Positions 41,532 to 51,146 of a DNA stretch of 64,000 nucleotides are shown piece after piece (the stretch's first letter is position 1; each line of letters opens with the position of its first letter). The notes beneath the pieces were generated by a model that saw nothing but the letters and a program-made list of their open reading frames with translations, ran no database searches and was not told the origin of the DNA. This stretch comes from Thermalbibacter longus. Lineage in GTDB: Bacteria; Chloroflexota; Chloroflexia; Thermomicrobiales; Thermomicrobiaceae. The translations under genes and the position numbers were made by a program. The stretch lies in the NCBI RefSeq assembly GCF_023806485.1, contig NZ_JAMSLR010000001.1:186001-250000 (forward strand), given 5' to 3'.

Positions 41532-42773
41532 ATGGCCCCGGTGGAGTACGATGCGATCGTCGTCGGAGCACGGATCGCCGGGAGCGCGACGGCCCTCCAC
41601 CTTGCCCGGCACGGCTACACCGTGCTCCTGCTCGACCGCGATCGTTTCCCGAGCCCCACGCTCTCCACACACCTCTTCTTCACCGATACCCTCGGCGCCT
41701 TCCGCGAGCTGGGCGTACTCGAGCGGGTGCTGGCCGTCGACGCCCCTCGCCTGCGCTGGCTGCGCTTCCCGTACGTGGCGGCGCCGTTCCCTGAGCACGA
41801 CGGGCTTGATTTCGCGCTCTGCATCCGCCGGGAGGTGCTGGACACGATTCTGCTGGAACAGGCCGCGGCCCAGCCCGGGATCACGGTTCAGGCCGGCACC
41901 CAGGTTACCGGGCTCATCTGGGATGACGACCGCGTCGTTGGTGTTCGCTACCGGGCTCGGAGGGGCCGGACCGAGGGCGAGGTTCGCGCTCGGATCGTGA
42001 TCGGGGCCGATGGTCGCGGCTCATTCGTGGCGCGCGCCGCTGGAGCCGTCGAATACGACGCGGTCCCGCCGCTGTTCGCCTGGTACTACGCCTACATGAT
42101 CGACGTTCCGCTCGACGATCCGCCGAGCGCTGCCGCCTTTCGTGGGCCGTTCCCGGAAGTCGGCGCTGAGTACTCGGCGGCCTTCATATTCCCGGCCGAC
42201 GGTGGGTTGACGCTGGTCGGCTTCGGGGTCGAACATGCCGCTTTTGGCCGGTTTCGCCGGAATGTGCGTCAGAGCTTCTTCGCCGGCCTGCGGTCGCTGC
42301 CGGCCGTCTGGGAGCGGGTGGGGCAGGCCCGGCTGGTGAGCCGGGTCCTAGGCACGGGTCATCTCCCCAACTTCTTCCGCGCTGCCTGGGGGCCGGGCTG
42401 GGCACTGGTCGGTGATGCCGGGTGCCACAAGGATCCGCACACCGTGCAAGGTATGGGCGATGCGGTGCGCAGCGCCCGCTTACTGGCTACCGCGCTCGAC
42501 CGGTGGTGGCGGGGGCAGGCGAGCGAGGAGGAGTCCCTTTCCTGGTACCAGCACGAACGGGATGCTGATCTCCGGCCGATGTACGACTTCACCACCTTTC
42601 GCTTGCAAGCACAGGTGGGCGACGAGATCTGGGAGCGCTTCAACCAGCTCACCTGGGAAGACGAGGGGCTGGCGTGCAGGCGCGTGGCCGCGATGACGCA
42701 CGCGGTCCATCCCGCGGATGTCTACACGCCGGAAGCGGTGCTCCGGGCGGTGCATGCCCATTCGGCGGCCTGA
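41532..42773 (+). CDS. FAD-dependent monooxygenase/geranylgeranyl reductase-like flavoprotein
   Basis: A 413-residue flavoprotein of the PHBH-like superfamily. The FAD motif is DAIVVGARIAGSATALHLAR (about 7-26, with Ala in the second Gly position), IVIGADGRGSFVA is the middle NAD(P)/FAD segment, and WALVGDAGCHKDPHTVQGMGDA the late GD motif. It has no extra C-terminal thioredoxin-like domain. Relatives hydroxylate aromatics or reduce isoprenoid double bonds. ATG 41532 has GGGAGGAG upstream. It is monocistronic, separated by 372 nt from the respiratory operon. Confidence 0.82.
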   Translation: MAPVEYDAIVVGARIAGSATALHLARHGYTVLLLDRDRFPSPTLSTHLFFTDTLGAFRELGVLERVLAVDAPRLRWLRFPYVAAPFPEHDGLDFALCIRREVLDTILLEQAAAQPGITVQAGTQVTGLIWDDDRVVGVRYRARRGRTEGEVRARIVIGADGRGSFVARAAGAVEYDAVPPLFAWYYAYMIDVPLDDPPSAAAFRGPFPEVGAEYSAAFIFPADGGLTLVGFGVEHAAFGRFRRNVRQSFFAGLRSLPAVWERVGQARLVSRVLGTGHLPNFFRAAWGPGWALVGDAGCHKDPHTVQGMGDAVRSARLLATALDRWWRGQASEEESLSWYQHERDADLRPMYDFTTFRLQAQVGDEIWERFNQLTWEDEGLACRRVAAMTHAVHPADVYTPEAVLRAVHAHSAA

Positions 42774-42964
42774 CCGCAAGCTGAGCCCGGAGCTGACAGC
42801 TCCGCCACTGATGGGTCAGGGTAGCGCCAGAGCGGCCGGCGACCGGCCCCTGGGCCAGACGGTGGCGGACGTACCCGTGTCTGGAGCCGTGATCGAGGAA
42901 CAGGCGTTGACGCCCGTAGCGGCTGGCTCTCGCCAACGATATGGGAATCACTCCGATGGGGGAC

Positions 42965-42993
42965 TTGACAACGGGGCTGCTCCGCAGCATGCT
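42965..42993 (+). promoter_or_regulatory. Promoter P1 of the Act operon
   Basis: TTGACA (42965-42970), 17-bp spacer, CATGCT (42988-42993; an 18-bp spacer gives ATGCTA). The -10 region GCATGCTAC is repeated exactly in P2, 63 bp downstream. The rest of the 372-nt gap shows no gene. Confidence 0.55.
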
Positions 42994-43000
42994 ACTGGAG

Positions 43001-43020
43001 GTTGTGAAGACGCTCACAAC
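43001..43020. promoter_or_regulatory. CRP/FNR-type dyad between the two Act promoters
   Basis: GTTGTGA (43001-43007) and TCACAAC (43014-43020) form a perfect 7-bp dyad with a 6-nt centre, containing TGTGA-N6-TCACA, the consensus of CRP-family regulators. It lies at the expected start of P1 and about 50 bp upstream of the P2 start. Confidence 0.65.
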
Positions 43021-43027
43021 GTGCGTC

Positions 43028-43056
43028 TTGACAACCGACCTCTGGCGGCGCATGCT
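43028..43056 (+). promoter_or_regulatory. Promoter P2 of the Act operon
   Basis: TTGACA (43028-43033), 17-bp spacer, CATGCT (43051-43056), followed by AC as in P1. TTGACAAC and GCATGCTAC are shared with P1, while the spacers differ. The first start codon is 90 nt further on. Confidence 0.6.
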
Positions 43057-43145
43057 ACCGGCGAAATCGATTGACCCGCCGCCTGTTGGCTGCACGGCCT
43101 CCGGCCGTCGCGCGCGGACAGGGATGCGATCGTAGAGGGGGAGCG

Positions 43146-43436
43146 ATGACGCCCGAGAATGTGACCAGTGAGCAGTGGCAGCAAATCAGCACGGCTCTGG
43201 TCTGGTTCTGGGCCTTCCTCGGTTGCGTCGTGGGCTTCGCTGCCAACTTCCTCGTCGGCTATGCCATCATCCCTTCTCTCGTCTCAACTCGCGATCTTCC
43301 AGCTCGCGCCATGACGGTGCGTCCAGTCCTCTTCGCCCTCGCTGTCGTGTTCCTTCTGGCGGCGATCTTCAGCTTCATCAACCTCGTTGGTGGGATCCAG
43401 GTGCTCTACGAGATCTGGCCACAGAAGTGGATCTGA
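43146..43436 (+). CDS. Small two-helix membrane protein of the Act operon
   Basis: A 96-residue protein with two long hydrophobic segments (ALVWFWAFLGCVVGFAANFL, about 17-36, and PVLFALAVVFLLAAIFSFIN, about 60-79). It has no heme or metal motif. As the first gene after the tandem promoters and before the pentaheme cytochrome gene, it is probably an accessory or small subunit of the complex. ATG 43146 is preceded by GGGGGAG; the frame opens at 43071. No named family recognised. Confidence 0.75.
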   Translation: MTPENVTSEQWQQISTALVWFWAFLGCVVGFAANFLVGYAIIPSLVSTRDLPARAMTVRPVLFALAVVFLLAAIFSFINLVGGIQVLYEIWPQKWI

Positions 43437-43513
43437 GCCGGCACGGGAACGGTACTGTCCTGGTGCCGGCTACTGGGCGGTCGTGAAGCATTAAGAGAAC
43501 GGAGCCGAGAGGA

Positions 43514-44050
43514 ATGCAGCGCTACTTCCGGTTGGTGCTGTTCGCCGCCGTGATGCTGGTGGTGCTGGCCATCCCGGTTGCTGCCGTGCTGGCGCGCTCA
43601 TACTTCCTCGCCCCTACGGCCCAGCCGGTCAAAGCCCAGCCTATTCAATTCCCGCATCAGGTTCACGTGCAGGGGATGGGGCTGGACTGCACCTTCTGTC
43701 ACCGGGGGGCTACGACTTCGGCACAGGCGACGATCCCGGCTCTCGAATTCTGCATGAACTGCCATAAGATCGTTCCCTGGGAGGGACGGCCTGACCTGGA
43801 GCGGCTGGTGGAGGCGTTCCAGAGCGGCCAGACGATCCAGTGGAACAAGGTGCACCAGCTCCCGGATCACGTCCACTTCGTCCACGCAGTTCACCTCAAC
43901 TTCGGCTTCCAGTGCGCCGATTGCCACGGTGACGTCGGCTCGATGGGGAAGCCAGGCGTGAAGCAAGTTCGTGATCTGCGCATGGGTGACTGTCTAACCT
44001 GTCACCAGCAGAACGGCGCGCGAACCGATTGCTCCGTGTGCCACTACTGA
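43514..44050 (+). CDS. actA: Alternative complex III subunit ActA, pentaheme cytochrome c
   Basis: A 178-residue membrane-anchored cytochrome. An N-terminal hydrophobic helix (about 5-27) is followed by five CxxCH heme sites: CTFCH, CMNCH, CADCH, CLTCH and CSVCH. Several extra His residues (HQVHVQ, HVHFVHAVH) can be distal ligands. ActA passes electrons from the quinol site/ActB to ActE or directly to the terminal oxidase. ATG 43514 has GGAG upstream. The next gene begins 23 nt after its stop. Confidence 0.93.
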   Translation: MQRYFRLVLFAAVMLVVLAIPVAAVLARSYFLAPTAQPVKAQPIQFPHQVHVQGMGLDCTFCHRGATTSAQATIPALEFCMNCHKIVPWEGRPDLERLVEAFQSGQTIQWNKVHQLPDHVHFVHAVHLNFGFQCADCHGDVGSMGKPGVKQVRDLRMGDCLTCHQQNGARTDCSVCHY

Positions 44051-44079
44051 TCGGCGGCACGGCACGAGTGGAGATGAGG

Positions 44080-46320
44080 ATGCGGCGACGAGAGTTCCTC
44101 AAGCTGGCAGCGACCTCAGCGACCGGAGCGGTGCTCTTCACCGGCTGCGGGTCGATCGGCGATGCGAACCCCGAGCACGAGTTCAAGATCGAAAGCCCGG
44201 TTCGCAACCCGAACGACCTGCTATACGGGCGTGACAACTGGTATGCCACGGCCACTCCGCTCTCGATCGGGGGTTACGGGATCATCGTCCGGGTCTTCGA
44301 GGGGCGAGCAAAGAAGGTCGAGGGGAATCCAGACTTCCCCGTCAACCTCGGGCGTAGCTGCGCGAAGGCACAGGCGCTGGTCCAGGAGGTCTACCACCCG
44401 GATCGAATCGGCGGGCCGCTTCGCCTCGCCGGCCAGCGCGGCTCTGGCCAGTTCCAGGTCATCGAGTGGGAAGAGGCGCTGGGCCAGGTCGCTGACCTGA
44501 TCCGGCAGGCTCCTGACTCGACGCTCCTCATCACCGAACCGCTCAACGGCGCACTCGGTGCCATCGTCGAGCAATTCGTCCAGACGACGGGCATCCAGCA
44601 CGCTAGCCTGGAGCCCGACGAGCGGGTGGTGCTGCGGGAGGCGATGCGACGGGTCTTCGGGGTGGATACCTTGCCCACGCTGGACCTCGCCAACGCTCGC
44701 TTCCTGGTCAGCTTCAGCGCCGATTTTCTGCACACCTGGATCTCGCCGGTGCAGTTCGCGCGGGCCTATGGAGCCTTCCGGCAGGGCCGGCCCGACGTGC
44801 GCGGTACGTACTATCATGTCGGCCCCCGGCTCTCCGGCACGGCCGCCAATGCCGACCGCTGGTTCCCGGTTCGACCGGGTGCCGAGGGGCTGGTCGCGCT
44901 GAGCATGGCCCAGGTCATGCTCGAGGAAGGGCTCGTCGAGGGGGACGGAGCTGAGCCGTTCTTCCAGGCAATCGGTCTGACGCCGGAGCAACTGGGGGCG
45001 GATTTCGCTCCCGATCGGGTCGCCGATGCTGCTGGGCTCACCGCTGAGCAGATCCGAGAACTGGCGCACGCCTTCGCCGAGCAGCGACCGAGCGTCGCGA
45101 TCGCCGGGACTAGCGCTGCGGCGACCACCAACGGGCTGTTCAACCTCGCGGCCGTATTCGGCCTCAACTACCTGGTGGGCAGCGTCAATAGCGAGGGGGG
45201 CCTGATCCTGAACCCTGCGTCACCGCTTCCAGACGAGCTCCCGGCGAACCGTGGCGGTGATCCATATAGCCAGTGGGTCAACATCGCCCAGCAGATCGCG
45301 GGCGGCCAGATCCGGACGGTGCTCGTCCACCGGGCGAACCCAGTGTACAGCTTGCCGCCGGCCAGCGGCATCCAGGACGCGCTGCGCGGTGCCGGGTCGG
45401 TCGTCAGCTTCTCAAGCTTCCTGGACGAGACTACGATGCTGGCAGACCTGGTTTTGCCCGATCACACCGCGCTTGAACAGTGGGGCCTGGTAGTTCCGGA
45501 ACCCGGGCCCGGCTTCGAGATCGTCGCGATCCAGCAGCCGGTGGTGAACCCGTTCGTCAACACTCGCGCGTTCGGCGATGTGTTGATTCAAATCGCTTCC
45601 CAGCTCGGGCAGGCGCTTCCCTGGCCGAGCCAGGAGGCGGCGGTGCGCGCGCTGGCCGATGGGCTGCGTGGCCTGGGGCGCGGCAACGTCGAGGCCGAGC
45701 AGCCCAGCGAGTACTTCGTCACCATGCAGACGCAAGGCGGATGGTGGGACGAAGAGGCGAGGGCCGAGGAGGCGAGCCCTCAAGCGCCGACTGCCCCGGC
45801 GAATCCGGAATTCGCTGGCGATCCCGGCCAGTTCCCGTTCTACCTCCTCCCGTTCCCGTCCGATTCGCTCGGATACGGGGAGTTTTCGCACCTGCCCTGG
45901 CTCCAGGCGCTGCCGGAGCCGGTCTCGACCAACGTCTGGGGAACCTGGATCGAGTTGAACCCGCGGACGGCCCAGGACATCGGCGTGGAGACCGGCGACG
46001 TGGTGCGCGTGGTGACGCCGCAGGGCAGCGCCGAGTTGCCAGTCTACGTAAACCCGGCGGCGATGCCCGATGTCCTCTCGGTGCCGATGGGCCAGGGGCA
46101 CAAGGCTTATGGACGCTATGCCGAGGGACGCGGGGTGAACCCGCTGGAGCTGGTCGCGCCGCAGGCAGAGCGGGAGACGGGGGCCCTTGCCTGGGCGGCG
46201 ACTCGCTGCCGGCTGGAGCTGACTGGTCGTCGGATGCGCATCGCTCGCTTCGAAGGGCAGTTCCCGGCGTTCCAGCTCGAGGAGTTCCCGATCATTCAGG
46301 TCACGCGGCCGCGAACGTGA
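44080..46320 (+). CDS. actB: Alternative complex III subunit ActB1 (molybdopterin-oxidoreductase-like, no cofactor expected)
   Basis: A 746-residue protein. The N-terminus is a twin-arginine signal (MRRREFLKLAATSATG) with a lipobox Cys at C23 (LFTGC). The body is the molybdopterin-oxidoreductase fold (NLGRSCAKAQALVQEVYHPDR, SVNSEGGLILNP, VHRANPVYSLPPASG, ADLVLPDHTALEQWG). Its end, VWGTWIELNPRTAQDIGVETGDVV, is the dinucleotide-binding-type beta barrel. In ActB this part is known to hold no molybdenum cofactor. Here it is separate from the iron-sulfur part, whereas many ActB proteins are one chain of about 1000 residues. ATG 44080 has GGAG six bases upstream; ATG 44074 is possible. Confidence 0.9.
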   Translation: MRRREFLKLAATSATGAVLFTGCGSIGDANPEHEFKIESPVRNPNDLLYGRDNWYATATPLSIGGYGIIVRVFEGRAKKVEGNPDFPVNLGRSCAKAQALVQEVYHPDRIGGPLRLAGQRGSGQFQVIEWEEALGQVADLIRQAPDSTLLITEPLNGALGAIVEQFVQTTGIQHASLEPDERVVLREAMRRVFGVDTLPTLDLANARFLVSFSADFLHTWISPVQFARAYGAFRQGRPDVRGTYYHVGPRLSGTAANADRWFPVRPGAEGLVALSMAQVMLEEGLVEGDGAEPFFQAIGLTPEQLGADFAPDRVADAAGLTAEQIRELAHAFAEQRPSVAIAGTSAAATTNGLFNLAAVFGLNYLVGSVNSEGGLILNPASPLPDELPANRGGDPYSQWVNIAQQIAGGQIRTVLVHRANPVYSLPPASGIQDALRGAGSVVSFSSFLDETTMLADLVLPDHTALEQWGLVVPEPGPGFEIVAIQQPVVNPFVNTRAFGDVLIQIASQLGQALPWPSQEAAVRALADGLRGLGRGNVEAEQPSEYFVTMQTQGGWWDEEARAEEASPQAPTAPANPEFAGDPGQFPFYLLPFPSDSLGYGEFSHLPWLQALPEPVSTNVWGTWIELNPRTAQDIGVETGDVVRVVTPQGSAELPVYVNPAAMPDVLSVPMGQGHKAYGRYAEGRGVNPLELVAPQAERETGALAWAATRCRLELTGRRMRIARFEGQFPAFQLEEFPIIQVTRPRT

Positions 46321-46380: not shown

Positions 46381-47106
46381 ATGCCACGCTGGGGAATGGT
46401 GATCGATCTCGACCGGTGCACCGGTTGCGGCGCCTGCGTTGTCGCCTGTCAGGCCGAGAACAACGTCCCGATCAATACCGAGGACGTCTATCACCAGCGC
46501 CGCGCGATCGAGTGGATCCGGCTCGAGCGCTACTGGGAGGGCGAGTACCCCAACATCAAGGCGCGCTATATCCCGGTGCCCTGCATGCATTGCCAGAACG
46601 CGCCCTGCGAGCCCGTCTGCCCGGTCTACGCGACCTACCACACCAGCGAAGGCATCAACATGCAGGTCTACAACCGGTGCATCGGTACGCGCTACTGCGC
46701 GATCAACTGCCACTGGCACGTCCGGTTCTTCAATTTCTGGGAGCCGAAGTGGCCTGACTCGCTGAAGAACCAGCTCAATCCGAACGTCACGGTTCGTAGC
46801 CGCGGTGTGATGGAGAAGTGCACCTTCTGCATCCAGCGCGTGGTGAAGGCCGAACACCAGGCAAAGCTCGAGGGCCGCGACCTCGAAGCCGATGAGTTCA
46901 CGACGGCCTGCGCGCAGGCCTGCCCGGCCGAGGCGATCGTCTTCGGGGATCTCGACAACCCGAACAGCCGGGTCGCTCAGCTCGTCAACAGCGCCGTCAA
47001 CGAGCGCGGCTACCGGCTACTCGAAGACCTCGGTACCGAGCCATCCGTCTACTATCTCAAGAAGATCGACCCCGAGGCGGCTGCCGAGGAGCACAGCGGT
47101 CACTAG
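46381..47106 (+). CDS. Alternative complex III subunit ActB2, multi-cluster ferredoxin
   Basis: A 241-residue iron-sulfur protein of the NrfC/DmsB type. Cys groups: CTGCGACVVAC (16-26 region), CMHCQNAPCEPVC, CIGTRYCAINC, CTFC and late CAQACP, enough for three or four cubane clusters, as in the C-terminal half of fused ActB. It shuttles electrons between the quinol-oxidising membrane part and the cytochromes. It begins 60 nt after the ActB1 stop. The lack of its own signal suggests export bound to ActB1 through Tat. Confidence 0.92.
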   Translation: MPRWGMVIDLDRCTGCGACVVACQAENNVPINTEDVYHQRRAIEWIRLERYWEGEYPNIKARYIPVPCMHCQNAPCEPVCPVYATYHTSEGINMQVYNRCIGTRYCAINCHWHVRFFNFWEPKWPDSLKNQLNPNVTVRSRGVMEKCTFCIQRVVKAEHQAKLEGRDLEADEFTTACAQACPAEAIVFGDLDNPNSRVAQLVNSAVNERGYRLLEDLGTEPSVYYLKKIDPEAAAEEHSGH

Positions 47107-47144: not shown

Positions 47145-48533
47145 ATGGCCAGGCACACGACGGTAGTGACTCACGGACATGAGCTGCAGCGCACCTGGGA
47201 GCTTGCGCCTCGGGACGTGCTCGACGCCGGGCTTCGGTGGGTGCGCTCTCTGGGGACGGGGCGCCGGCTGGTCGCGTTGATCGCGCTGGCACTCGGCGTC
47301 GTGGGCGCGATCGCGCTCGTGGTCGGGCCGCTCTTGTCGGGTTACGCGAACCGGCAAGTGTGGGCTTACACCGCCGTCGCGTTCGTGTACCTCATGTCCA
47401 CTGCGGCGGCTGCTCCTTGCCTCTCGACCGCGCTGCGAGTGGCCCGAAGCCACTGGCGCCGGCCGGTTAACCGCGTGGCCGAGATCTGGGCGGTGACATT
47501 GATCATCCCCTTGATCCTCTACCTGCTCCTGCTCGGCACGCTACCGGGAACCGAGAACCGCCTCTCGATCTGGTTCGGCTGGCCGCTCTCACCGTGGTTG
47601 TGGGGCGCGATCCTGATGGTGAGCCTGACCGGTGCTGGCTACTTCTTCCTCTGGCTCAGCAGCCTGCCTGACCTGGCCATCGTGCGCGATCAGACCGACT
47701 CGGCTCGGCGCGGGCTGATCGCCCGGCTGGCAGGGCCCTGGCGCGGCTCGCACCGGCAGTGGCGCATGATCGAGAAGGTCGTGAACAACGCCGGAGTCCT
47801 CTACGTCCTGATCTACGTGCCGACGATGACCGTGTTCGCCACCGACTTCATCATCAGTATGATCCCCGGCTACTTCACGGCGGTCTTTCCCGCCTACTTC
47901 ACCATAAGCTCGTTCGAGGCCGGGATCGCGCTGACGATCGTTACGATGGCAGTGCTCCGCCGCTGGGGTGGACAGCAGGACTATCTCGGCCTGGAGCAGT
48001 TCTGGGCGCTGGGCAAGATGCTCCTGGCCTTCGCGCTCCTCTGGTTCTACTTCTGGTGGTCGGAGTTCATCATCTTCTGGTACGGGCGGTTGCCGCGAGA
48101 GATCAATGTGCTCAAGTACATCATGGCCGAGACGTACCTCTGGCCGTTCGTGCTGGCGTTCCTGCTCAACTTCGCCCTGCCGCTGTTGATCCTGATGTGG
48201 AACCCGATTCGCCGCAGTATCGCCGGGCCGACGGTCGTGGCCTGCATCGTGCTAGTCGGCAACCTGATCGACCGGATCCGCTTGATATCGGCCGGCTACT
48301 CGGTGCCGGATATCACCCAGCACGAGCTCCACGAGATCCCGGCGGCCTATATCCCCAACCTCCTCGACATCCTGATCCTGGCCGGCGCGATCGGCGGCGC
48401 GGTGGCGCTGGTGCTGTTCACGTTCCGGGTGTTGCCTTTCCCCTCGATCTGGGAGGTCACCGGTGGACTCTGGCTGCGTGCCCACCGCCCGTTCAAGCAC
48501 GCGCGGGTGATCGTGGTCGGTAAGCCGGAGTAA
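47145..48533 (+). CDS. actC: Alternative complex III NrfD-type membrane subunit ActC
   Basis: A 462-residue quinol-interacting membrane protein of the NrfD/PsrC family with about ten transmembrane segments, beginning near residue 45 (LVALIALALGVVGAIALVVG). It has a typical cytoplasmic/periplasmic tail ending PFPSIWEVTGGLWLRAHRPF. NrfD subunits form the quinol-binding site and, in the Act complex, a proposed proton path. The start ATG 47145 follows GGCGAGCGGGG. It is followed after 39 nt by a second protein of the same family. Confidence 0.9.
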   Translation: MARHTTVVTHGHELQRTWELAPRDVLDAGLRWVRSLGTGRRLVALIALALGVVGAIALVVGPLLSGYANRQVWAYTAVAFVYLMSTAAAAPCLSTALRVARSHWRRPVNRVAEIWAVTLIIPLILYLLLLGTLPGTENRLSIWFGWPLSPWLWGAILMVSLTGAGYFFLWLSSLPDLAIVRDQTDSARRGLIARLAGPWRGSHRQWRMIEKVVNNAGVLYVLIYVPTMTVFATDFIISMIPGYFTAVFPAYFTISSFEAGIALTIVTMAVLRRWGGQQDYLGLEQFWALGKMLLAFALLWFYFWWSEFIIFWYGRLPREINVLKYIMAETYLWPFVLAFLLNFALPLLILMWNPIRRSIAGPTVVACIVLVGNLIDRIRLISAGYSVPDITQHELHEIPAAYIPNLLDILILAGAIGGAVALVLFTFRVLPFPSIWEVTGGLWLRAHRPFKHARVIVVGKPE

Positions 48534-48572: not shown

Positions 48573-49946
48573 ATGCAGGAACGCCACCAACTAGGGGAAG
48601 AGGCGATCACGAGGGAGCTCTTCCGGCCCCTGGTGTCGACCCCGGCGATGATGTGGGTCGGCTTCATCGGCCTGGGAGCAGTCCTGGCGATCTTCGTGTT
48701 CGCCGTGAGCTGGATGTTCTATTGGGGGCTGGGCGTCACCGGGCTCCATCGCCCCAACATGTGGGGCTTCATGATCGTCAACTTCGTGTTTTGGATCGGT
48801 ATCAGCCACGCTGGCGTGATGATCTCGGCGATCCTGCGCCTCACCCAGGCCGAGTGGCGACGACCCGTCACGCGTGCCGCCGAGGTGATGACGATCTTCA
48901 GCCTGATGACCGCTATGCTCCACCCGGTCATCCACACCGGGCGGCCGTGGCGCACGCTCTACTGGGTCTTCCCGTACGATTTCTGGCGCAACCTGTGGCC
49001 TGATATCCGTGGCCCGCTGGTCTGGGACCCCAGCGCCATCCTGACCTACCTCACCGGCTCGACGCTCTTCCTCTACACGACGATCATCCCCGATATGGCT
49101 CTGGCGCGCGACCGAACGACCGGCTGGCGTCACGTGCTGTACTCCATCCTGGCGCTGGGCTGGCGCGGCAACGAGCGCCAGTGGAAGATGCAGACGATTG
49201 CCGGCTTCCTGCTCTCTGGCCTCATCCTGCCGGTGTTCGTCTCGGTGCACAGCATCGTCTCCTGGGACTTCGCTGTCTCGCTGGTTCCCACCTGGCACGC
49301 GACGGTGTTCGCGCCGTACTTCGTTATCGGGGCGATCCACTCCGGCGTCTCCGCCGTGGTGACCTTAATGGCGCTGATGCGCTGGCTCTTCCGCTTCGAG
49401 AACTACATCCGCCTGGAGCACTTCGATTCCATTGGCCGGCTCCTGATCGCTGTCGGCACCGGCTGGCTCTGGTTCTTCCTGCTCGATATCTTCTTCGCCA
49501 TCTATCCGCAGGAGGCGCGCGAGCTGGAGATCATGCAGTTCCGCCTGTTCGACTGGCCCTTCAATGTGATGACGGCGCTGATCTTCATCTTCGGTTACTT
49601 CATTCCGGTGCCGATCTGGGTCTTCCAGCGTTTCCGCCGCAACGTGAAGATCATGTTCTGGACTTCGATTGCCGTGAACGTCGGCATGTGGGCTGAGCGC
49701 TACTGGCTCATCAAGCCTGGCCTGATGCGCAAGTACGAGTGGACGTTCGACTGGGCCTGGTACCGGCCGAGCATCGTCGAGATCAGCATCGTGATGGGTT
49801 CGTTCGCACTGGTCGGCTTCCTGCTGCTCGTGTTTTCCAAGATCTTCCCGCCTATTTCGGTTTGGGAAGAGAAGGAGGGCGTGCACTTCGCCCAGCAGCT
49901 TCAGGTTGGGAAGCGGCGGGTCAACGCCATCGTCCGAGAGTTCTAA
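48573..49946 (+). CDS. Alternative complex III second NrfD-type membrane subunit (ActF-like)
   Basis: A 457-residue polytopic membrane protein of the NrfD family with about ten hydrophobic segments, related to but distinct from the preceding ActC (it starts QERHQLGEEAITRELFRPLV and ends ISVWEEKEGVHFAQQLQV). The Act complex normally contains two NrfD-type subunits, ActC and ActF. Here they are adjacent, whereas in the classical order actF comes last. Which of the two corresponds to C and which to F needs alignment. ATG 48573 has GGAGG upstream. Confidence 0.88.
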   Translation: MQERHQLGEEAITRELFRPLVSTPAMMWVGFIGLGAVLAIFVFAVSWMFYWGLGVTGLHRPNMWGFMIVNFVFWIGISHAGVMISAILRLTQAEWRRPVTRAAEVMTIFSLMTAMLHPVIHTGRPWRTLYWVFPYDFWRNLWPDIRGPLVWDPSAILTYLTGSTLFLYTTIIPDMALARDRTTGWRHVLYSILALGWRGNERQWKMQTIAGFLLSGLILPVFVSVHSIVSWDFAVSLVPTWHATVFAPYFVIGAIHSGVSAVVTLMALMRWLFRFENYIRLEHFDSIGRLLIAVGTGWLWFFLLDIFFAIYPQEARELEIMQFRLFDWPFNVMTALIFIFGYFIPVPIWVFQRFRRNVKIMFWTSIAVNVGMWAERYWLIKPGLMRKYEWTFDWAWYRPSIVEISIVMGSFALVGFLLLVFSKIFPPISVWEEKEGVHFAQQLQVGKRRVNAIVREF

Positions 49947-49981: not shown

Positions 49982-50524
49982 ATGGCGATCCGAGAAGTCC
50001 TGGGCATCTACAAGGACCTCGACTCCGCGGTAGCCGCTGCGGACGCGCTGCGCGAGGCCGGGTTCGACCGCGCGGAGTTCGAGGTGCTCTCCAACGCTCC
50101 GTATCCGGAGGGGACATTCGGGGAGGAGTCGGGAATCCACCGGTTGTTCGTCTTCCCGTTGATCGGCGCGTGCTGTGGCTTCGCGGCGGGGTTGCTGATC
50201 ACCGGGGGAACCCAGCTCAGCTTCCCACTGCTTACCGGCGGCAAGCCGCTGCTCTCGATCCCGCCGATGATCATCATCATGTACGAGGGCACGATGCTCG
50301 GCGCGCTCATCTTCACCGTGCTCGGAGTACTCTTCGAGTCGCGGCTGCCGTGGATCGGCAAGGCGCTCTACGATACCCGGATCACGGCTGGCTATATCGG
50401 GATTCTGGTGCGCACCGCCCCGGAGCGCGAGTCGCTGGCGATCAGCGCGCTGCGCAAGGCGAACCCGGAAGACGTGTTGACCGAGGGCGGGAGCGTTGGT
50501 GGCACCGCGCCAGCAGCGCAGTGA
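49982..50524 (+). CDS. actD: Alternative complex III subunit ActD (DUF3341)
   Basis: A 180-residue membrane protein. The soluble N-terminal ferredoxin-like part (GIYKDLDSAVAAADALREAGF) and two transmembrane segments (FPLIGACCGFAAGLLITGG, about 58-76; IIIMYEGTMLGALIFTVLG, about 97-116) match DUF3341 proteins, the ActD subunit. It follows the second NrfD gene after 35 nt. The tail after residue 165 is Gly/Ala/Thr-rich. Confidence 0.92.
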   Translation: MAIREVLGIYKDLDSAVAAADALREAGFDRAEFEVLSNAPYPEGTFGEESGIHRLFVFPLIGACCGFAAGLLITGGTQLSFPLLTGGKPLLSIPPMIIIMYEGTMLGALIFTVLGVLFESRLPWIGKALYDTRITAGYIGILVRTAPERESLAISALRKANPEDVLTEGGSVGGTAPAAQ

Positions 50525-50552
50525 GGGACGCCGGATGCGAGGGAGCATGGCG

Positions 50553-51146
50553 ATGATGACGCGGGCGCGAGCGGGCAGTGCACGCGGCCGACGCATCGGA
50601 CTGGTGCTGGTCAGCCTCAGCGTGCTCGTGTTCGCCGCGGCGTGTAGCTCGACGAACACGTATCCGATCGACTTCTTCAGCGAGATGCACTACCAGAAGT
50701 CATTTCGCGCTCAAGAGCCACCGCGGCTCGACTCTCCGCCCGGCGCGGTACCGATCACCGGCGGTGAGCCTGCCTATACCCTTGAGGAAGCCAGGGATCT
50801 AGAGAACCCGCTAGCAGATGACCCGCAGGCGCGCGAGCGCGGGGCTCAACTCTATGCGTTGAACTGCGCGGTCTGCCATGGCGCTGAAGGCCGCGGTGAC
50901 GGTCGAATGGCGGCTATCTGGCGGGCCCGGCAAGGGGCCGTCCCGCCGGCAGACCTGACGTCCTCGGCCGTGGCGAACCGCACGGACGGCGAGCTGTACT
51001 GGATCCTCACGAACGGGTATACCTCGCCGGAGAACCAGGTGCAGTTCCCGGACGGCCTCTCAAATATGCCTGCGTTCGGCAAGCTGTTGACACCGGAAGA
51101 GCGCTGGGCTCTGGTCTCCTATATTCGCCAGCTCCAGGGGCGTTAG
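50553..51146 (+). CDS. actE: Alternative complex III subunit ActE, monoheme cytochrome c lipoprotein
   Basis: A 197-residue cytochrome. The N-terminal hydrophobic segment ends in a lipobox with C31 (FAAACSS), so it is lipid-anchored outside. The single heme site is CAVCH (105-109) and the likely Met ligand is in NMPAFGK (M172). It is the last gene of the operon. ATG 50553 is chosen because GAGGGAG lies seven bases upstream; in-frame ATGs at 50535 and 50547 are alternatives that change only the signal. A strong palindrome follows. Confidence 0.9.
   Translation: MMTRARAGSARGRRIGLVLVSLSVLVFAAACSSTNTYPIDFFSEMHYQKSFRAQEPPRLDSPPGAVPITGGEPAYTLEEARDLENPLADDPQARERGAQLYALNCAVCHGAEGRGDGRMAAIWRARQGAVPPADLTSSAVANRTDGELYWILTNGYTSPENQVQFPDGLSNMPAFGKLLTPEERWALVSYIRQLQGR

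Follow-up and report, generated by a model that had tools for sequence, protein, structure and literature searches.

A predicted Rex operator on the start of a conserved promoter of the alternative complex III operon in Thermalbibacter longus

In many bacteria, alternative complex III takes the place of the cytochrome bc1 complex. Among described respiratory promoters, the closest counterpart of the locus analysed here is the Rex operator (ROP) of cydA1 in Streptomyces avermitilis, an 18-bp site of the TTGTGAA-N4-TTCACAA type at the promoter of a respiratory operon, where Rex leaves a footprint from -3 to +25 (PMC5355995). This operator consensus, TTGTGAA-N4-TTCACAA, recurs in the described Rex systems (PMC8376106, PMC5355995), and the Rex protein of S. 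avermitilis also binds nuo, atp and hppA (PMC5355995). Gram-positive Rex regulons comprise many genes of fermentation and NAD+ regeneration (PMC5355995, PMC8376106), whereas the predicted target described here encodes a membrane quinol-oxidising complex. The site upstream of the act operon of T. longus resembles the cydA1 operator in sequence type and in its start-overlapping geometry. It differs from it, however, in that the target is the alternative complex III operon, the host is a heat-loving member of the Chloroflexota, and the locus additionally has a second promoter as well as a predicted 5' RNA stem-loop whose sequence overlaps the operator. Literature searches combining alternative complex III with Rex and operon, promoter or regulator returned sulfate-reducer work only, and searches on Rex in Chloroflexi and on 5' stem-loops returned nothing direct; control of alternative complex III by Rex may already have been predicted for other Chloroflexota. 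The Act promoter is probably a new target for a known class of regulator, and a conserved Rex operator at this position would tie alternative complex III to the cellular NADH/NAD+ ratio.

The window is the whole stretch of 64,000 nucleotides analysed (contig NZ_JAMSLR010000001.1, positions 186,001 to 250,000, forward strand); all coordinates given below are positions within it, and all features lie on its + strand. Two predicted promoters of the form TTGACA-N17-CATGCT stand in tandem ahead of the operon. As read from the sequence, P1 (42965..42993) consists of the -35 box TTGACA at 42965-42970, a 17-bp spacer and CATGCT at 42988-42993, followed by AC, and P2 (43028..43056) repeats this arrangement at an offset of 63 bp, with TTGACA at 43028-43033, a 17-bp spacer and CATGCT at 43051-43056, again followed by AC. 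Both promoters have TTGACAAC, the spacing and GCATGCTAC in common. Their start sites, placed about 7 nt past each -10 box, are predicted at ~42999-43001 for P1 and ~43062-43064 for P2. Between the two promoters lies the dyad core TGTGAAGACGCTCACA (43003-43018), a TGTGA-N6-TCACA site with no mismatch, the arms of which are perfect over 7 bases (GTTGTGA-AGACGC-TCACAAC, 43001-43020). Positions, sequences and spacing of this tandem arrangement upstream of the Act operon are exactly as claimed in the sequence-only reading, which had also placed the dyad on the P1 start and about 50 bp ahead of the P2 start; relative to the predicted starts, the dyad covers ~+3 to +18 of P1 and its centre falls at ~-52 of P2. 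A generic scan of the region for sigma-70 promoters and terminators yielded no match; P1 and P2 escaped it because their -10 boxes are far from TATAAT. The pattern TTGACA-N18-ATNCTAC, with at most one mismatch, is enriched in the genome (16 matches versus 1 for the reversed-pattern control) and, therefore, P1 and P2 look like the ordinary promoter type of the organism. The mutual likeness of P1 and P2 would partly reflect this common promoter consensus of the host genome. A special recent duplication is an unneeded claim, the shared bases being largely those of the genome's promoter consensus.

The first gene of the operon (43146..43436) encodes a predicted 96-aa, two-helix membrane protein that has no match in Pfam, NCBIfam or PDB and is kept downstream of P1 in relatives. 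It is followed by actA (43514..44050), which encodes a multiheme cytochrome c with profile matches to the ActA chain of 6btm and to chains of 8k9e, 6f0k and 6lod, by the molybdopterin-oxidoreductase-like part of actB (44029..46320, with the true start probably at 44101 or nearby) and by its iron-sulfur part (46381..47106). Two NrfD-like membrane subunits of the actC/F type (47145..48533 and 48573..49946), actD (49982..50524; PF11821, E=1.1e-29) and actE, encoding a cytochrome c (50541..51146), come next. With the actA-E set present, the PF11821 domain in ActD and the matches of ActA to solved alternative complex III chains, the identification of these genes as an Act operon is confirmed.

The act upstream regions were compared among 20 genomes with an ActA gene from the family Thermomicrobiaceae (Thermomicrobium, Sphaerobacter, HRbin26-28 and several MAGs), one of which was unreadable owing to contig ends. 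P1 is kept in 19 of the 19 readable act operons. The dyad is retained in 14 genomes of four genera, namely four of the own genus (g1), one of g3, six of Thermomicrobium (g6) and three of the Sphaerobacter type (g2), and its second half-site is weaker in the copies of the latter two groups. Four act operons of genus g4 have P1 without the dyad. In genus g5 (L034), P1 and a P2-like promoter both stand ahead of act, with one half-site only (TTGTGGA). Between the own genus and Thermomicrobium, the flanks share 23% identity, which is no better than random, and the promoter spacer 34%, versus 100% for the -35 box, 88% for the -10 region and 89% for the dyad. By this comparison of sequences, P1 with the dyad is a phylogenetic footprint. 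In the 14 genomes, the P1 -35 box and the dyad lie ~38 bp apart: the distance measures 38 bp in Thermomicrobium as well as in the own genus, and 37-39 bp in operons with a promoter spacer of 16 or 18. In genomes with both elements, the distance from the dyad to the P2 -35 box is 25, 24, 28, 28, 26, 37, 37 and 38 bp, and P2 is missing from all six Thermomicrobium operons, each of which retains P1 and the dyad. The fixed spacing to P1, the varying distance to P2 and the loss of P2 show that the dyad is locked to P1 and not to P2; P2 is best modelled as a putative separate start, lineage-specific and dispensable.

Across the 158 genomes of the class, the promoter-plus-dyad pattern has 23 matches, with none in the control. 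Six of these 23, from genomes of another family of the class (L193-L198), carry a dyad of a different kind, TGTGACACCTGTCACA, and may represent another system; in them, TTGACA-N17-TATACT is followed by TTGTGACACCTGTCACA or a close variant, directly ahead of a gene for a 493-aa membrane protein. A Chloroflexia MAG outside the family (L139) carries TTGATAATTCTTTCACAA, with 2 mismatches relative to the Rex operator, ~610 bases before actA. Exact TGTGA-N6-TCACA matches in order-level relatives were mixed and were left out of the evidence.

The predicted Rex operator GTTGTGAAGACGCTCACAAC occupies positions 43001..43020 (core 43002-43019), where the P1 transcript is predicted to begin, and TTGTGAAGACGCTCACAA agrees with the published Rex operator TTGTGAAN4TTCACAA at 13 of its 14 fixed bases. 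Operator counts were obtained by pattern searches with reversed patterns as controls. The exact TGTGA-N6-TCACA form has a single occurrence in the window; the genome search for the dyad proposed in the sequence-only reading found exactly one copy of TTGTGA-N6-TCACAA in the 3.6-Mb genome. Moreover, within the genome the dyad comes closest to the Rex operator and is the only site with at most one mismatch; such sites number 11 across the family versus 2 for the reversed-pattern controls. The genome contains one gene for the NADH/NAD+-sensing repressor Rex (G000:C1:436430; PF06971 and PF02629; NCBIfam Rex, 286 bits), whose relatives in the PDB are found with E 2e-48. Its product is similar to Rex proteins with solved structures (3ket, 5zz5, 3wg9, 3ikt) in domain architecture, in a recognition helix with Arg plus Arg/Lys/Gln, and in operator consensus. 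By numbering, Arg75/Arg76 in AAQIRRDLSFFG are the counterparts of Arg50/Arg51, the two base-contacting arginines in the recognition helix of S. agalactiae Rex (PMC8376106), and the wing residue Arg62 of the S. agalactiae protein is, also by numbering, a Gln in the host Rex, as in the Rex of 3wg9. No operator is obvious by eye upstream of the rex gene of the host genome. Since rex occurs in nearly all genomes of the family, including those of genus g4 with their dyad-less act promoters, the co-occurrence of rex and the dyad does not discriminate.

Lac-type operators have arms 4 bases apart, and a site of this kind is ruled out here by the 6 bases that separate the arms of the dyad. TGTGA-N6-TCACA is also the consensus of CRP, which counts in favour of a CRP/FNR-family protein that would bind the dyad, block P1 and activate P2, as the sequence-only reading had proposed. 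CRP sites, such as those of E. coli CRP and GlxR, share the five-base arms and N6 spacing with the dyad; in contrast, the outer T/A and the inner A of the dyad, which are conserved, are in keeping with Rex, and the cognate protein appears to be absent from the genome. No CRP/FNR transcription factor was detected in this genome, which is 99.93% complete, by PF00027 and PF13545 searches: PF00027 is found in a single protein of 664 aa, which is CBS/nucleotidyltransferase-like and has no HTH, and the PF13545 (HTH_Crp_2) matches read as GntR-, MocR-, MarR-, IclR-type and similar proteins. The sequence-only reading had made its assignment depend on the occurrence of CRP-family regulators in the genome, and with none found, the site fitting Rex better and rex being present, this part of it is abandoned. 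The dyad is likewise kept in G005, with zero PF00027 proteins, and in G011, with a CBS-type PF00027 protein only. CRP-type transcription factors with HTH do exist in two relatives, G002 and G018, and the latter, a dyad-bearing MAG of 90% completeness, has no rex match. However, the distance to P2 varies by more than one helical turn, P2 is lost in Thermomicrobium, and the standard positions for activation of class I or class II do not include a centre near -52, so that control by a CRP/FNR-family protein appears highly improbable. Another dimeric repressor, for example of the GntR/FadR type, could use the operator through the same mechanism at P1 in response to a signal other than NADH/NAD+. 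The genome does encode many HTH proteins, several of them of this type; nevertheless, the agreement of the motif with Rex at 13 of 14 fixed bases and the further sites at genes for NADH and energy metabolism, as is typical of Rex, argue against such a repressor, which we consider rather unlikely.

These further sites were found with the family form of the operator, TGTGAANNNNCTCACA, which has 17 matches in 21 genomes versus 1 control match. All 17 belong to one of three ortholog groups, with 10 matches at act, 3 at a second promoter of the own genus and 4 at a nuoE/nuoF-like operon. In the sister genus g4 (four genomes; L051, L153, L154 and L155), the start region of the nuoE/nuoF-like operon, and not act, bears the dyad, which follows a TATACT-like -10 box at a distance of ~10 bp. 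Moreover, near-consensus Rex sites occur upstream of hppA in two g4 genomes and upstream of an isocitrate-lyase-like gene in G005 (g3). Taken with the operator match and the conservation at P1, it is likely that the dyad is the operator of the single Rex repressor, and that Rex, in its NAD+-favoured state, represses P1.

At its 5' end, the P1 mRNA probably carries a conserved stem-loop, predicted at 43001..43035 (GTTGT.AAGACGC / GCGTCTT.ACAAC). Its 5' arm is shared with the operator and its 3' arm overlaps the P2 -35 box: the central bases of the dyad are complementary to the arm just downstream (AAGACGC with GCGTCTT), and GTTGT/ACAAC form the outer pairs. Pairing holds despite base changes, as AAGACGT/ACGTCTT in G005, GGCGC/GCGCC in Thermomicrobium and GCGATCA/TGATCGC in the Sphaerobacter types. 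Sliding the arms lowers it from 84% to at most 57%. The stem-loop is absent in L034 and L039, and a search of Rfam with 42700-43600 gave no match up to E = 1. It is less usual for an operator to overlap an mRNA 5' end that is structured, and the RNA structure could itself be the primary selected feature, as an mRNA stabiliser or protein-binding leader, with the DNA dyad as its by-product. Windowed folding of 13 leaders shows structure to be strongest right at the P1 start (mean z -2.63), with 11 of the 13 below -1.5, two base pairs carry compensatory changes on both sides (8 cells versus 2.5 in shuffles), and hairpins persist in some g4 operons without the dyad, all of which speak for such an origin. 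Nevertheless, TCACA lies in the hairpin loop and yet TCAC is invariant across four genera, as needed by the DNA dyad and not by the hairpin, and nuoEF promoters have the same dyad but not this hairpin; selection on the RNA first is, thus, very doubtful. Tentatively, the 35-base sequence might serve both purposes, as DNA being the Rex operator that sets the firing of P1 by NADH/NAD+ and as RNA a 5' stem that stabilises or controls the P1 mRNA; such a dual use predicts covariation between the free core bases of the operator and the RNA arm downstream, which is observed. If it is true, a switch from P2 to P1 would alter both the rate of synthesis and the lifetime of the alternative complex III mRNA.

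We infer a mechanism in which Rex binding, the start sites, the sign of regulation and the roles of P2 and of the hairpin would combine as follows. At low NADH (high NAD+), a Rex dimer on +1 to ~+20 of P1 would stop initiation or early elongation. As NADH builds up, Rex would release its operator and P1 would fire, giving more alternative complex III, which would pass quinol electrons onward. The P2 start, ~60 bp past that of P1, lies beyond the operator and could provide a basal transcript that is Rex-independent or weakly affected. P1 transcripts would start with the stem-loop, probably as protection of the 5' end with a role in its stability, and P2 transcripts would be formed without it. 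Blocking of P1 by a dyad-bound regulator is the favoured reading of the site, and this half of the earlier proposal of one regulator blocking P1 while helping P2 is retained; the helping of P2 is unsupported, given a distance of 24-38 bp and the missing P2 in Thermomicrobium.

The second promoter with a TGTGA-N6-TCACA dyad in the own genus, at G000:C45:85153-85211 (L083, L213), also has a 5' hairpin (CAGTCTG...CAGACTG). This conserved set of promoter, dyad and hairpin occurs likewise in G002:C40 and G003:C8, and the dyad is followed by TTGACA. Downstream, the first clear ORF, which encodes a DNRLRE-domain protein, lies ~730 bp away and, therefore, a small RNA or a long leader is possible at this locus.
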